Assembly: GCA_002897695.1 (NCBI GenBank)
Contig: BDTG01000034.1
Location: 1-39,388, forward strand
Length of the DNA: 39,388 nucleotides
Source of the DNA: a bacterium BMS3Abin14
GTDB taxonomy: Bacteria; BMS3Abin14
Reading direction: 5' to 3'
The notes beneath the pieces were generated by a model that was given only the letters and a program-made list of their open reading frames with translations, was not told where the DNA came from and searched no databases. How positions within the stretch are numbered: position 1 is the first letter of the stretch; each line of letters begins with the position of its first letter. Positions 16,935 through 35,950 of this stretch are shown in pieces. Both the position numbers and the translations under genes were made by a program.

Positions 16935-16995
16935 GGCAACGTCTCCAACCCTGATATGGTCGCAAAAATTCCATCAAAGGACGCGTTGATGCCTT

Positions 16996-18132
16996 TTACG
17001 AGGTCATCAATTTGAGGGCCAGATCGTCCTTATGGATAACCTCAGTTCCCGGACATGCCCCGAGAACCGGCTCGATCTCCCGACTGTGCAGTCCCATGAT
17101 TTTCTGGATCTGGACGGAGGAAAAGCAGGTAACGCCTCTGGCGATCTCATCCCCTTCCCGATTCACACACCGGACAAGGGAGCCCTGCTCAAAACTTCCG
17201 TATACCTCCAGGACCCCGGCGGGAAGAAGGCTTTTTTTGTCCTCAACGAGAGCCTTTACGGCCCCATCGTCCAATACCAGTGTCCCGTTGACTCCACCGA
17301 CGAAGGATATCCAATGTTTTTTCGATGCCAGTTTCTCCGTGGACGGCAGAAAAAGCGTCCCCTCGGGGGCACCCGCAAGAATTCGGGTGAGAATCCCCCT
17401 TGAGCGACCATCAGCGATAACCGTGGGAATCCCCATCCGGGCGGTCCTTTTGGCAGCCAGCACCTTGGATGACATCCCGCCGGATCCGGCCTCTCCAGGT
17501 CCCCCCGCCATGTCAAAAACAGCGTCGTCCACATGGTCCACAACCTCAATGAGATGACCATCGCCCAATTTCGGGTCCCGGTCATACAGACCGGCAATAT
17601 CAGTCAGAACCACCAGGAGGTCGGCGTCAGTCAGATTTACTACCATGGAGGATAATAAATCATTGTCGCCGTACTGAATTTCGTCGACAGCCACTGTGTC
17701 ATTCTCATTGATAATGGGGATTATTCCCAGCCTGATGGATGTCTCCAGGGTGTTTCGTGCGTTCACAAAACGCCGGCGATCTTCCAGCCCATCCCGCGTG
17801 AGGAGCATCTGTCCCACATTTATTCCGTGGCGAGAGAAAGCGATCTCGTAGGCATTCATCAGCAAACCCTGGCCCACTGCGGCCAGGGCCTGTTTTACCT
17901 TGAGCGTCCGGGGGGCTTCCCTTCTTCCCATCTGATGCATCCCCATGAGGATAGCCCCTGAACTGACCACGACAAAACGGTACTTTTTGGGTGCCAGATC
18001 GGCGATTTCCTCGGCCAGAGCGCCGATGAGGCGTTGATCCACCCCGCCATCCGGACCGGCAAGGACCATGCTGCCCAATTTTATAACAATTCTTCGGCGA
18101 TCCCGGAGGATATTTTTTCTCTGCGAGTTCAT
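16996..18132 (-). CDS. proB: Glutamate 5-kinase with C-terminal PUA domain
   Basis: 378 residues. The amino-acid kinase domain shows VIKLGSMVLAG, VVVSSGAILMG, LTRDGLEDRRRFVNARNTL, IINENDTVAVDEIQYGDNDLLSSMV and GGMSSKVLAAK. The last about 100 residues form the PUA domain of long bacterial ProB proteins. It phosphorylates glutamate, the first and feedback-controlled step of proline synthesis. Its ATG overlaps the obgE TAA by one base (TAATG), implying translational coupling. Confidence 0.98.
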   Translation of the reverse strand: MNSQRKNILRDRRRIVIKLGSMVLAGPDGGVDQRLIGALAEEIADLAPKKYRFVVVSSGAILMGMHQMGRREAPRTLKVKQALAAVGQGLLMNAYEIAFSRHGINVGQMLLTRDGLEDRRRFVNARNTLETSIRLGIIPIINENDTVAVDEIQYGDNDLLSSMVVNLTDADLLVVLTDIAGLYDRDPKLGDGHLIEVVDHVDDAVFDMAGGPGEAGSGGMSSKVLAAKRTARMGIPTVIADGRSRGILTRILAGAPEGTLFLPSTEKLASKKHWISFVGGVNGTLVLDDGAVKALVEDKKSLLPAGVLEVYGSFEQGSLVRCVNREGDEIARGVTCFSSVQIQKIMGLHSREIEPVLGACPGTEVIHKDDLALKLMTS

Positions 18133-19421: not shown

Positions 19422-19455
19422 ATCCTTACCTCTTTTCCTGTTGGGCCGTTTGACA

Positions 19456-19482
19456 GGGTCGTAAAAAATCCATTAGCGACCC
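19456..19482. repeat. Interspersed GTAAAAAG-type hairpin between rplU and rpmA
   Basis: GGGTCG (19456-19461) pairs with CGACCC (19477-19482) around TAAAAAATCCATTAG. The core GTCGTAAAAAATCCATTA matches the reverse complement of 32808-32829 and resembles 27739-27757, so it belongs to a repeat family seen three times in this window. Confidence 0.55.
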
Positions 19483-19487
19483 TTCAC

Positions 19488-19799
19488 TCATCTTTCAATC
19501 TTCTCGATCCTGACCCCGGTGTAATCCTGCCTGTGCCCCTGTTTACGACGGTAGTTCTTTCGCCGCTTCATTTTGAAAACGATGATCTTCCTGTGGCGGT
19601 CCTGTTCCACAACTCTGGCGCTGACCTGCGCCCCATCCACCAGGGGTGTGCCAACCAGGAGATCGCTCCCCTCGCCGACCATAAGAACCCTGTCAAACGA
19701 CACCTCTGATCCGACATCGGCGACAAGCTTCTCTATTCGAACGATATCACCCTCGTTGACACGGTACTGCTTACCACCCGTCTCGATCACGGCATACAT
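19488..19799 (-). CDS. rplU: 50S ribosomal protein L21
   Basis: 103 residues from the ATG at 19799 ([20 protein letters not shown]), with GGAGG about 9 nt upstream; a longer frame adds 18 non-family residues. The end [26 protein letters not shown] is the usual L21 C-terminus. First gene of the rplU-rpmA-obgE-proB-proA series. Confidence 0.98.
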
Positions 19800-29415: not shown

Positions 29416-29498
29416 GACTGACAGGCTATTGATATGGCCGAAAAAAGTCCACCATATACCTTGCCGTCGGGAACATCGCTGAGGGAATGATTTTAGAC

Positions 29499-30684: not shown

Positions 30685-31473
30685 ATGAGGATGGGGAAAG
30701 TCAAAAAGGCCTTTCTGTCGGTATTATGCGTCATCATCCCCATGATCAACATCCTGGCGCCGAAAGCAGCCGGCGCTGTGACCTCCAGAGAGATTCTGGA
30801 GAAGGTCGACGACCTGTGGCGGGGCGAATCCAGCTACGCCGAGATGTCCATGGAGGTGATCACTGTCCACTGGAAGAGGTCGTTAAAGATCAAGGCGTGG
30901 TCACTGGGGAAGGACTACTCTCTCCTCGTCATCACATATCCGCCCAGGGAAAGGGGAGTCGCCACCCTTAAAACCAAAAAGGAGATCTGGAACTACCTCC
31001 CGAGGGTCAACAGGGTCATCAAGGTGCCCACCTCGATGATGATGGCCGGGTGGATGGGCAGTCACTTTACCAATGACGATCTCGTAAAAGAGAGCAGGAT
31101 GTCCGAAGATTACGACTCCAGGATTACCTTCGAGGGAAAACGGGGGGGGATGCCGGTCTATGAGATCACCCTGATCCCGAAACCGGACGCCCCTGTGGTA
31201 TGGGGAAAGATCCTGATCACCGTTCGCCGGGATGAACTGATCCCGATAACCTCGCTGTATTACGATGAGGACGGAAACCTGGCCAGGACCATGACCTTTT
31301 CCGACGTGACGCGATTCGGCGGACGGAGTCTCCCGGCGACCATGACACTGATCCCCGCCGACAAACCGACCGAGAGAACGGTTATCCATTACAACGAAAT
31401 AAAGTTCGGACTTGGACTGAAGAAGGATTTTTTCTCCATCCGCAACCTGTCCCGCAGAGACCTGTCCCAATGA
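30685..31473 (+). CDS. LolA-like outer-membrane lipoprotein-sorting protein
   Basis: 262 residues from the ATG at 30685 (MRMGKVKKAFL), 7 nt after AAGGG; an ATG at 30691 is possible. A signal peptide ends near AAGA. The mature part has the LolA/LppX half-barrel strands: YAEMSMEVITVHWKRSLKIKAWS, DYSLLVITYPPRERGVATLK, IWNYLPRVNRVIKVP, then SLYYDEDGNLARTMTFSDV and ATMTLIPADKPTERTVIHYNEI. Such proteins shuttle a lipid or lipoprotein across the periplasm. The stop overlaps the next ATG by 4 nt, and the neighbours supply the ABC parts, so it likely serves that transporter rather than general Lol sorting. Confidence 0.85.
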   Translation: MRMGKVKKAFLSVLCVIIPMINILAPKAAGAVTSREILEKVDDLWRGESSYAEMSMEVITVHWKRSLKIKAWSLGKDYSLLVITYPPRERGVATLKTKKEIWNYLPRVNRVIKVPTSMMMAGWMGSHFTNDDLVKESRMSEDYDSRITFEGKRGGMPVYEITLIPKPDAPVVWGKILITVRRDELIPITSLYYDEDGNLARTMTFSDVTRFGGRSLPATMTLIPADKPTERTVIHYNEIKFGLGLKKDFFSIRNLSRRDLSQ

Positions 31474-32699
31474 CCATTCTGAGGATCTCATGGCGCAACC
31501 TCTGGAGAAATCCGCGGCGTACAGGAATTACCGTCTTCTCCATGTCCTTCGGCCTGACCATGATGATCGTTGCGTATGCACTCATGGACGGGATGTACGG
31601 CCAGATGGTTCAGTTTGCCACCGTTCTGGGTACGGGCCATATCCAGATTCACAAACCAGGGTATCTCGATAACCGCTCCCTTTACGAAACCATCGACAAA
31701 CCCGAAGCGGTCCTGAGAGTCGTGGACTCCGCCAACGAAGGGTGGGCGGCCCCGAGGTCCTATGCCACCGCCCTGGTAAGTTCGGGCCCCCAGTCCGCCG
31801 GAGGCTACATATGGGGGATCGACCCGTCAAGGGAAAGGCGGGTAACGGATTTTCAACATCACCTGGAAAGCGGGGTCTTCCTGTCCGAGGGAGGGAGAGG
31901 AAAGGTCGTTCTGGGCCATAACCTTGCGAAAACCCTGTCCGTAGGCCCCGGGGATGAAGTCGTCCTTCTGGCCCAGGCTGCCGACGGGTCCCTCGGCAAT
32001 GCCATCTACACGGTTTCAGGGGTCCTTCAGAGCATAGGAGAAACTATCGACCGGACTGGAGTCCTCATGGACATTCGCGACATGGATGACCTGATGGTGC
32101 TCCACGGAAAAATACACGAAGTAGCTGTGCGCCTCGCAAGGCCCGACAGACTGGCCGAAGCGTTGTCGCGTTTCAAAACCCTCATGGCCCCCATGGGGCT
32201 CGAGGTAAAAAGCTGGAGGGAGCTTCTCCCTGGACTTTCGGAAGTCCTGAAATTGAGCTCCACCAGCACCACTATTGTGCTTTTCATCATCTTCGCCGTG
32301 GCATCCCTGGGCATCGTCAATACTCAGCTAATGGCCCTCTTTGAAAGGACCAGGGAGATCGGGGTCATGAGAGCTCTGGGACTGGGGCCAATACCTGTCG
32401 CGGCTATTGTTTTCCTTGAGACCATTTTCATGACCATCATCTCCGCTGTTGCCGGCGGAGTCGGCGGAGCCCTCTGGTCCTGGTACCTCGAAGTCTACGG
32501 CTGGGACATCAGCAACTTTGGAGGCTCCTTCGCCTACGCGGGTGTGACTTTCGACCCCCATCTCCGTGCCAGTCTCACGCTTACAGCTGTCGTTCAATCC
32601 GTTGAGATAATGCTGGTAGTCAGTATGCTGGCCACGATTTACCCTCTATTCAAGGCAGCCCGCATCACCCCGGCCACCGCGGTTGGAAGGGGGCGTTAA
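31470..32699 (+). CDS. FtsX/LolCE-type ABC transporter permease 1
   Basis: 409 residues. The N-terminal TM follows the typical RISWRNLWRNPRRTGITVFSMSFG motif, then a large periplasmic MacB-like domain (about 45-265) and three C-terminal TMs with the coupling segment LMALFERTREIGVMRALGLG. This topology fits type VII (mechanotransmission) ABC exporters such as LolCDE and MacB, which extract or move substrates on the periplasmic side. It overlaps the LolA-like gene (ATGA) and would pair with permease 2 and the ATPase at 34076. Confidence 0.9.
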   Translation: MTILRISWRNLWRNPRRTGITVFSMSFGLTMMIVAYALMDGMYGQMVQFATVLGTGHIQIHKPGYLDNRSLYETIDKPEAVLRVVDSANEGWAAPRSYATALVSSGPQSAGGYIWGIDPSRERRVTDFQHHLESGVFLSEGGRGKVVLGHNLAKTLSVGPGDEVVLLAQAADGSLGNAIYTVSGVLQSIGETIDRTGVLMDIRDMDDLMVLHGKIHEVAVRLARPDRLAEALSRFKTLMAPMGLEVKSWRELLPGLSEVLKLSSTSTTIVLFIIFAVASLGIVNTQLMALFERTREIGVMRALGLGPIPVAAIVFLETIFMTIISAVAGGVGGALWSWYLEVYGWDISNFGGSFAYAGVTFDPHLRASLTLTAVVQSVEIMLVVSMLATIYPLFKAARITPATAVGRGR

Positions 32700-32705
32700 T
32701 GGATG

Positions 32706-32825
32706 ACTTCTTGCGAAGTTATCCACGCGCCCATTTAAGGGCGCGCAAATCGAAGATTTGTGAGGAAAGTGAAAATGACACTTTTCGCTTTCCGTGGAGT
32801 AAAAAGCCATGAAGGGACTTTTTAC
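32706..32825. repeat. Mosaic of five consecutive short hairpins between the two permease genes
   Basis: In order: ACTTC/GAAGT (32706-32719), CGCGCCC/GGGCGCG (32726-32745), CAAATC/GATTTG (32746-32760), AAAGTG/CACTTT (32766-32784) and GTAAAAAG/CTTTTTAC (32799-32825). Nearly every base between the permease genes is palindromic, like a bacterial interspersed mosaic element. The first hairpin recurs at 35937-35950 and the last is related to 19456-19482 and 27741-27775. The last hairpin encloses the ATG of permease 2. Confidence 0.7.
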
Positions 32826-34065
32826 GACCCGGCCAATGATTATCGGCCTCGCCGCGAGGAACCTTCGCCGCTACCTTCGAAGGACCCTGATCACAACAGT
32901 GGGAATCGCGCTTGGGACCGCCCTTTCACTATTTTCCATGGGCCTTGGCGACGGCGGGCACAACCAGATGATCGAAAACGGCGTGCGTATCGGCCAGGGG
33001 CATCTGACCGTCCAGCCCAAAGGCTACCTGCAATCCCCTTCCCCCTCTCTTTTTATCCGGAACCCCGGCCCGATCCTCTCCGCTCTGAAATCCAATCCGG
33101 GGGTCAGGGAGGTTTTTCCAAGAATTCGCGGTGAGGGGATTCTGGCCACAGCAGCCGGCTCCGAGGGGATCCTGTTTCAGGGGGTAGACCCGAACCTGAA
33201 GGCAGAGGGAGCGATATTCAAAAGGAGCATGAAGGAAGGCGCCTTTCTCGATAGCACAGGCCGCCATAACCTGGTGATAGGGGAAAAGCTTGCCAAGCGC
33301 CTTAATTTGAAAGTAGGGAAAAAAGCGGTTCTCACCGCCCAGGATGCCGGCGGCGAGATAACCAGCGTCCTGCTGCGGGTGAAGGGAATCTTTCAGACCG
33401 GGTCCTCGTCCATCGACGGGGCGGTTTGCCTCCTTCCCCTTGGGATACTCCAGAAAACCCTCGGCATGGGCAAGGGGGTGACGTCCCTGGCCATTTACCT
33501 GTCCAACCCATATCAGCAGAACGCCGTGTTCAGGGAGCTAGATAAAATGCTCCCCGACGGGCCTGACGTCCTTCTCCCATGGCAGAAGCTCCAGCCTCAG
33601 ATGAGGGATTTCGTCATAATCGACAACGTGTTCGGCTACCTGACCTATGGCATCGTCCTTTTCATCGTCTCCATCGGGGTATTGAACACCGTGCTCATGT
33701 CCGTAATGGAACGAAAGAGGGAGATCGGAATCCTTGCGGCGCTGGGCATGGAAAATGGAGCTATCCTCAGGATGATTCTGCTGGAGACGACCTTTCTCAC
33801 CCTGTTAGGGATAGGGGGGGGGCTCATCCTCGGACTGGGGGTCAACTGGTACTTCTCTGTCCACGGCCTTGACCTCAGGTCCTTTTCCTCCGAGAGCTGG
33901 AACCTTGCCGGGACAGTCGTGGATCCCATCATGTACTCCCAGCTCCGGCCTCACCGGATACTCCAGCTCTGTCTTGCGGTTCTCGGCCTCACACTGACAA
34001 TGGGGATATATCCGGCATGGAAAGCCTCACACATAGAACCGGTGGAAGCGATGGAAAAACCATGA
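32809..34065 (+). CDS. FtsX/LolCE-type ABC transporter permease 2
   Basis: 418 residues. It has the same plan as permease 1: GLAARNLRRYLRRTLITTVGIALG as first TM, a periplasmic domain, then TMs with LNTVLMSVMERKREIGILAALGM. The ATG at 32809 has GGAG 11 nt upstream but lies within a repeat hairpin; the first nine residues (MKGLFTTRP) come from the repeat, and an ATG at 32836 starts exactly where family similarity begins. The two permeases are diverged paralogues, suggesting a heterodimeric LolC/LolE-like exporter. Confidence 0.9.
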   Translation: MKGLFTTRPMIIGLAARNLRRYLRRTLITTVGIALGTALSLFSMGLGDGGHNQMIENGVRIGQGHLTVQPKGYLQSPSPSLFIRNPGPILSALKSNPGVREVFPRIRGEGILATAAGSEGILFQGVDPNLKAEGAIFKRSMKEGAFLDSTGRHNLVIGEKLAKRLNLKVGKKAVLTAQDAGGEITSVLLRVKGIFQTGSSSIDGAVCLLPLGILQKTLGMGKGVTSLAIYLSNPYQQNAVFRELDKMLPDGPDVLLPWQKLQPQMRDFVIIDNVFGYLTYGIVLFIVSIGVLNTVLMSVMERKREIGILAALGMENGAILRMILLETTFLTLLGIGGGLILGLGVNWYFSVHGLDLRSFSSESWNLAGTVVDPIMYSQLRPHRILQLCLAVLGLTLTMGIYPAWKASHIEPVEAMEKP

Positions 34066-34768: not shown

Positions 34769-35930
34769 GTTGTCAAACAGGTCCCCTGCCCTCTTCCTGG
34801 CTCTGGCCTGGATAATATTAACGGTCTCTCCGGCGGCAGCCTGGACGGGGTTCGAGCTGGACGGGCTGGGGAGCTGGGCCACCGCAGCATATCTCCCTTC
34901 GGAAGCCTCCGACGGCTTCACCCGGTGGGAGGTGTCGGGCCGCTTCATGGCTCAGGAAACAGCGGGCGATCTATTCCTGGAAGTCCACGCACTGGCAGGC
35001 ATGACGGGGTGGTCAAACTCGAGTGGGCGGCCTGTCTCCTCCTCAACATCCATGTTCCGCTCCCTGGACCTGGAGACCAGCGGCACTCCTCGGAACAATA
35101 CCATTGCATTCTCCGAGATCGACCGTCTACTGATAACCCTGAATCATCAAAAGTTTCGTCTTACCCTGGGCCGCCAGGCGGTAACATGGGGAAACGCCTT
35201 TTACTTCAACATCGAGGACCTTTTCGGCACTTTTTCCCTCGCGGACATTTCAAGGCTCCACAAACCCGGGATGGATGCAGCCCTTTTGACCTTTTCCATG
35301 GGAAGCTTCTCTGAATTTACCATAGTGGGCGTTCCCCGGGGAAACGCATCCGGGAGCGGCGCAGGTTATCTTTTTCTCCCGGCCGGCGGCGGCACCTTGA
35401 CACTGGTCGGAGGATTGATTGCCGGGGACATCGAGGCCGGGGGAGGATACACCCTCGACGTTTCGGGAACAAAACTCTTCACACAGGCCCTATATACCTA
35501 TCCAGAGGGAGAAAATGCATTCTGGCAGGTCACCGCCGGGGTCGAAAACCAGCTCGGGACTTTAACCCATCTCCTAGGGGAACTGCATTATAACGGCTGG
35601 GGTTCCACAGACACCGGAGCATACTCGGCCATGAGGATCTCCGACCGCTTTGTCGATGGTCGGACCCTGACAGTTGGAAGATGGAACGCTGCCCTTGATT
35701 TATCCTTGCAGTTGACCCCTCTTTTCACCGGTCATTCGGTGGCATTCGTTAACCTGACCGATCCAAGTGTACTGCTGAGGCTGTACGGATTGTACTCCCT
35801 GTCGGACGTCTCCCAGTTCATCGGCGGAATAAATTACGGGCTCGGTAATTCGCCGGAGGGGTTGACCATCAACAGCGAGTATGGTGGTGTGCCGTTGACT
35901 GTCAACCTGGAACTTGTGGTGGATTTTTAG
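34752..35930 (+). CDS. Putative beta-barrel outer-membrane protein of the export cluster
   Basis: 392 residues from a TTG at 34752, overlapping the ATPase end by 17 nt. A signal peptide (LSNRSPALFLALAWIILTVSPAAA) is followed by alternating amphipathic strands rich in Gly, Thr and aromatic residues (FRLTLGRQAVTWGNAFYFNIEDLF, LTLVGGLIAGDIEAGGGYTL). It ends in Phe (LELVVDF), the usual outer-membrane insertion signal. The LGRQAVTWG element recalls DUF1302-like porins that accompany LolA-like/MMPL lipid exporters. Function is inferred from the neighbours: a receiving or exit point in the outer membrane. Confidence 0.75.
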   Translation: MWAAIKLSNRSPALFLALAWIILTVSPAAAWTGFELDGLGSWATAAYLPSEASDGFTRWEVSGRFMAQETAGDLFLEVHALAGMTGWSNSSGRPVSSSTSMFRSLDLETSGTPRNNTIAFSEIDRLLITLNHQKFRLTLGRQAVTWGNAFYFNIEDLFGTFSLADISRLHKPGMDAALLTFSMGSFSEFTIVGVPRGNASGSGAGYLFLPAGGGTLTLVGGLIAGDIEAGGGYTLDVSGTKLFTQALYTYPEGENAFWQVTAGVENQLGTLTHLLGELHYNGWGSTDTGAYSAMRISDRFVDGRTLTVGRWNAALDLSLQLTPLFTGHSVAFVNLTDPSVLLRLYGLYSLSDVSQFIGGINYGLGNSPEGLTINSEYGGVPLTVNLELVVDF

Positions 35931-35936
35931 GGAACG

Positions 35937-35950
35937 ACTTCTCGTGAAGT
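35937..35950. repeat. ACTTC-TCGT-GAAGT hairpin, second copy of the mosaic's first module
   Basis: ACTTC, 4-nt loop, GAAGT then TAT, located 7 nt after the barrel gene stop. It is the same module as 32706-32719, which lies 7 nt after the permease 1 stop. Confidence 0.5.

Follow-up and report, generated by a model that had tools for sequence, protein, structure and literature searches.

A MITE copy on the stop/start overlap of two permease genes, and a candidate translational bridge across it

The genes that surround the junction studied here encode, by Pfam assignment, a LolA-like protein, two permeases of the FtsX/MacB type and an ABC ATPase, and they lie in a window that comprises the whole 39,388-nucleotide stretch analysed. 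Permease 1, recognized by its MacB_PCD and FtsX domains (Pfam) and from its sequence, occupies positions 31470-32699 of the forward strand. Its TAA stop (32697-32699) overlaps by one base the ATG that formerly opened the permease-2 gene (TAATG). Anti-SD energy and comparison with relatives place the ancestral ribosome site and start codon of the permease-2 gene, where GGAAGGGGGCGTTAATG ends, at 32686-32701 of the same strand. Read from its present start, M1, permease 2 extends from 32809 to 34065, also on the forward strand (Pfam; relatives).

Five adjoining hairpins, designated A to E, are predicted to fill positions 32700-32825 of the forward strand, with linkers totalling 8 bases between A and E. 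Hairpin A (32700-32725) is the head and carries the left inverted repeat; it is followed by hairpins B (32726-32745), C in a short form (32746-32760), D (32764-32793), which has a 12-bp stem and is identical at 30 of 30 bases in the sister genome G001, and E (32799-32825), the tail. A sequence-only reading of this locus had described a hairpin mosaic between the permeases, and folding bears this out: as RNA, 32695-32840 reaches a minimum free energy of -59.5 kcal/mol, whereas 200 shuffles give -33.2 (sd 4.0) and none does as well (z -6.5), and folding as DNA gives z -7.3. The span assigned to the mosaic, 32706-32825, was too short at its start, where it trims 6 nt from hairpin A. The proposal that the last hairpin encloses the permease-2 ATG and donates the N-terminus also holds: the stem of E is GTAAAAAGCC/GGaCTTTTTAC, its loop opens with the ATG (32809-32811), and bases 32809-32835 encode MKGLFTTRP, nine MITE-derived residues that precede the ancestral start, M10, at 32836. 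Between 32500 and 33000, no intrinsic terminator (GC stem and T run) was found and no Rfam family scored above the gathering threshold.

The hairpins had been taken for five independent modules. They are instead, almost certainly, parts of a single copy of a 136-nt miniature inverted-repeat transposable element (MITE) in its short form (32700-32835, forward strand), delimited by the family alignment and a profile, with a match of its right half to R1, a covariance model built from hairpins D and E. The mosaic is repeated elsewhere in the window genome (G000; 2.28 Mb in 49 contigs), where the genome-wide search proposed in the sequence-only reading returned 40 BLAST matches and 52 R1 matches. 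The 36 G000 regions that were fetched, together with the window, held 41 BLAST matches and 18 near-full-length copies, in which the hairpins, being parts of one element, keep a fixed order. Neither observation that would have refuted that reading was made: the modules do occur elsewhere, and the region is not conserved as coding sequence. The family consensus runs from head A (TTGATGACTTCGCAAAAAGTCATCAA) through B, C (short or long form) and D to tail E, which ends in GACTTTTTRCGACCCTATCA; the 71 copies collected span 111-177 nt, cluster around 136 and 156 nt and contain no transposase gene. As terminal inverted repeats, the consensus head and the reversed tail have 17 of 21 bases in common, and some copies consist of little beyond both ends. 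A separate GC-rich hairpin (CCTGCCTGTGCGT...ACGCAGGCAGG), perhaps another mobile module, is carried within the loop of E by some copies (L021, L023, L030, L031 and L042).

Two remnants of the family are present on the minus strand of the window, one of A+B (16952-17009; profile match, E 8e-5) and one of tail E (19451-19490; E 0.001). The first module had also been reported to follow a 'barrel gene'. A similar palindrome (35937-35950) does follow the ORF ending at 35930, for which Pfam gave no match, but the resemblance is weak and at chance level, the window containing 5 such matches against a chance mean of 2.6, with at least 5 in 16 of 100 shuffles. The A+B remnant is a better second piece.

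Pairs with substitutions on both sides number 9 in the 35 short copies (of 71 near-full-length ones); shuffles average 3.2, with 0 of 500 reaching 9, and slid controls never exceed 5. Pairing shows no strand preference overall (33 G.U vs 27 A.C), which leaves strand-specific selection on RNA unsupported overall; hairpin D alone leans toward the RNA strand, and it is conserved across the whole family, not at the junction copy alone. The idea of the element as a coding module was rejected as well: open frames are found at least as often in shuffles as in the two copies assessed, the window copy and a long one. When copies located between co-directional genes in G000 and G001 were counted once per cluster, 26 lay with and 7 against the genes (p 0.0013), the gene context, as for the bridge paths considered below, being taken from rough gene calls by a longest-ORF script. 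Such an orientation bias could arise through selection within operons or through a preference at insertion.

The distribution of the repeat is narrow. Under strict filters, R1 was positive in 11 of 386 surveyed genomes, all within the 12-genome family of the window, and had no match in the 374 genomes outside this bacterial family. Copies detected by R1 number at least 119 in each of G001, G004 and G005 and near 119 in G006, G007 and G010, with lower counts in the other family genomes and only 3 in G003. G002, though rated complete, is the sole family member with no R1 match. The 348 kb of G001 that were examined, in stretches picked for dense R1 matches, contain 53 near-full-length copies. 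Viral contigs, plasmids and phages gave no match to the MITE (the viral pattern being one exact tail consensus), and no paper on this repeat was recognized in literature searches, which could not be made by sequence.

The element is mobile, as shown by sites occupied in only one of the two sister genomes. Seven G000/G001 region pairs were compared, four obtained via matching flanks of G000 copies, two via dense G001 stretches and one being the window itself. They contain 27 G001 clusters, of which 5 could not be placed in G000; among the 22 placed, 19 are absent from G000, 2 lie in the same gap but elsewhere or doubtfully, and a single one, the permease junction copy, is shared base for base. 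Conversely, 6 of 11 G000 clusters could be placed in G001, where 3 are absent and 3 were flagged, the latter representing the same three sites. The family duplicates 3 bp (perhaps 4 bp) of its target, within A-NNR-TTGA: in 49 of the 71 copies, 22 having been dropped as tandem neighbours or as the G001 ortholog, the flanks agree at positions -3 to 0 in 65, 47, 63 and 61% of cases, against 52, 26, 38 and 45% when the flanks are re-paired; of 300 re-pairings, 4, 0, 0 and 0 reach the observed values. At the junction copy the putative duplication, AATG at 32698-32701 and 32834-32837, is out of the family register, which counts against the account of the junction given below. Tandem copies meet at joints of about three bases, and in G001 they form arrays (L120:6128-6404, L114:16985-17418 and L110:18585-18859) as if inserting into each other's ends. 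G001 also carries, after a Ser/Thr kinase gene and next to a solo head palindrome, a segment of about 1.7 kb with ABC transporter-like genes (L112:8814-10519), which is missing from G000 at window positions 29421-29497.

Target duplication and inverted ends together indicate a DDE transposase. The search for one covered two families and seven genomes, and a single DDE_Tnp_1 locus, in G005 (L141:1239-2907), was found bracketed by MITE-like ends. This insertion sequence (IS) is 1669 bp long, encodes a transposase of 520 amino acids and lies about three bases from a MITE copy; its best NCBIfam model is IS1182, at 116 bits and thus below the cut-off of 270. Related IS fragments occur in G000 and G008 and a scrap in G001, whereas 8 of the 12 family genomes lack them altogether. 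The 5' end of the fragments matches the MITE head at 19 of 21 bases in G008 and 15 of 21 in G000, and across G005, G000 and G008 the IS and MITE ends agree at 15 to 19 of 21 bases. The MITE, which shares only its ends with the G005 element, is non-autonomous and probably mobilized by such an IS1182-like transposase. Large G001 insertions near elements were discarded as candidate autonomous copies, their translations indicating ordinary protein genes, as were rve-type transposases: one of these (L149) has MITE pieces nearby, but its gene is not enclosed by a pair of ends.

Several known repeats resemble this element in part. REP/BIME sequences, which go with RAYT transposases, are short palindromes with many intergenic copies and arrays, as is the present element; the latter differs in having a target duplication and inverted ends, and a RAYT origin was rejected because the lone Y1 match of G000 is broken and not flanked by the repeat. 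This match, L075 (G000:C28:49348-49638), is an IS200-like Y1 transposase gene interrupted by three stops and the only one in the genome. The palindromic elements of Rickettsia are able to add coding sequence and sit inside genes, whereas the present element is intergenic and adds nine N-terminal residues.

Bacterial MITEs such as Correia, Chunjie and QMITE are described as elements of less than 500 bp with terminal inverted repeats, target duplications and stable stem-loops, which occur in partial and tandem copies and have related IS (PMC10969869). The present element is similar in size, inverted ends, target duplications, stem-loops, tandem and partial copies and a candidate related IS, and has most of the MITE features that were tested. 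It differs in its five hairpins of fixed order, with each end itself palindromic, in the confinement of the family to one uncultivated lineage and in the position of the junction copy on a stop/start overlap. The roles reviewed for MITEs include promoters, IHF sites, RNase cleavage, gene inactivation and small RNAs, as well as possible riboswitches or terminators; the passage of the review devoted to functions mentions no translational bridge (PMC10969869).

The state of the junction before insertion is visible in relatives. Among ten family genomes outside the genus, the permease pair is readable in eight (G009 reads N at the junction and G007 is without a close ortholog), and none of these eight carries the element there. 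In all of them the permease genes overlap as TGATG and the start of permease 2 corresponds to M10, which answers the earlier suggestion that its N-terminus be compared in strains without the element. Their ribosome site lies within the last permease-1 codons (anti-SD -5.8 to -12.4 kcal/mol), and the old site is retained before TAATG in both G000 (-10.8 kcal/mol) and G001 (-7.1). The MITE has thus landed on the permease stop/start overlap. Its copies in G000 and G001 are identical at 120 of 136 positions (88.2%), without a gap, and diverge less than synonymous sites, since fourfold sites of four neighbouring genes are identical at 449 of 630 positions (Fisher p 2e-5). Two variants forming a compensated pair are common to both junction copies and absent from the 33 remaining short copies; this favours a single insertion, and one that predates the G000/G001 split is the best explanation.

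The sequence-only reading supposed that the mosaic would damp or stall translation and could set the ratio of the permeases. The anatomy of the element suggests another route: the old ATG at 32699 now opens a frame of 37 codons (MDDFLRSYPRAHLRARKSKICEESENDTFRFPWSKKP; 32699-32812, forward strand) that crosses all five hairpins and whose TGA stop (32810-32812) overlaps the new permease-2 ATG as ATGA. Ribosomes finishing permease 1 would restart at the old ribosome site and ATG, translate through this mini-ORF, melting all five hairpins, terminate at ATGA and then initiate permease 2, which would preserve coupling despite the insertion. We consider this the best mechanism for the junction, with a probability of roughly 0.6. 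In its favour, the old ribosome site is strong, and the one before the new start is weaker (-5.9 kcal/mol in G000 and -3.3 in G001). The same mini-ORF and ATGA are found in G001, with 12 differences in 114 nt, of which 10 lie in codons where residues are altered or preserved with no clear coding pattern, a point against the bridge.

Retention at the junction site is the only argument for use of the bridge. The frame is open to the tail in 22 of 71 copies and ends as ATGA in just 3 (the junction copy, its ortholog and one other), and a bridge-like path exists at 5 of 20 tight loci. At 15 controlled loci there are 3 such paths, against 102 of 600 for swapped and 163 of 600 for flipped elements, and general bridging as a trait of the family is not supported, there being no excess over these controls. 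Random substitutions, moreover, retain the mini-ORF and its ATGA 36% of the time, which together with the lack of enrichment means that the bridge can be accidental at its origin. One further G001 copy (L122:11337-11491), absent from the corresponding place in G000, lies right after a gene stop, and a TTG-started frame in it ends as ATGA at the start of the next gene.

A stronger version of the bridge, tentative at present, holds that the transposon was domesticated as a joint: the copy would have been kept, as nearly all others turned over, because its accidental frame restored coupling, and the hairpins would act as a gate driven by ribosomes. Somewhat doubtful, too, is the view that the MITE is merely tolerated, with permease 2 initiating by itself, at an altered level, from the GGAG and ATG borne by the element (M1) or from M10, and with the mini-ORF accidental. 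The GGAG before M1 (anti-SD -5.9 in G000) agrees with this view, as do the chance-level bridging at other copies and the persistence of the frame under random change, but the site is weak in G001 (-3.3), and the junction copy is shared and slow-evolving while others turned over. An improbable alternative is a putative regulatory hairpin array, in which the stems would slow ribosomes or be cut by RNase, hairpin D being the likely site, and so set the permease ratio. The fold is very stable, hairpin D is unchanged in G001 and transcripts of Correia MITEs are reported to be cut by RNase III (PMC10969869); against this stand the absence of an overall strand bias in pairing, D alone excepted, and the family-wide conservation of D. 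Independent insertions into one preferred target, which would make the sharing uninformative on retention, are very improbable, for although some other copies resemble the members of the orthologous pair at least as closely (up to 91.1% and 89.7%) as these resemble each other, as expected under a star-like family or gene conversion, the boundaries of the two orthologs are identical without a gap and the compensated pair that they share is missing from the 33 other short copies.

For coupling through the mini-ORF, the closest functional case found in print is the mycobacterial MIRU, described as inserting at start codons and as having an internal ORF that is coupled to the gene at -4 spacing (ATGA) (PMC12548453). 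Compared by that description, the junction copy is likewise a mobile repeat at a start codon with an internal ORF ending in ATGA; it belongs to a different lineage, and here the ORF is a property of one copy (3/71), bridging not being enriched.

The occupied sister genomes and their empty relatives show the outcome of a transposable element hitting a stop/start overlap: a new mini-ORF captures the old ribosome site, and the downstream gene acquires an N-terminal extension. They also add a MITE family that is high in copy number, restricted to one lineage and paired with an IS1182-like candidate partner. If the joint is indeed domesticated, permease 2 would be synthesized solely by ribosomes coming directly from the completion of permease 1, and the junction would represent a second, independent origin of a MIRU-type bridge, with its empty ancestral state visible in relatives. 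The junction thus offers a simple, testable case of whether translational bridging can absorb mobile repeats into operons.
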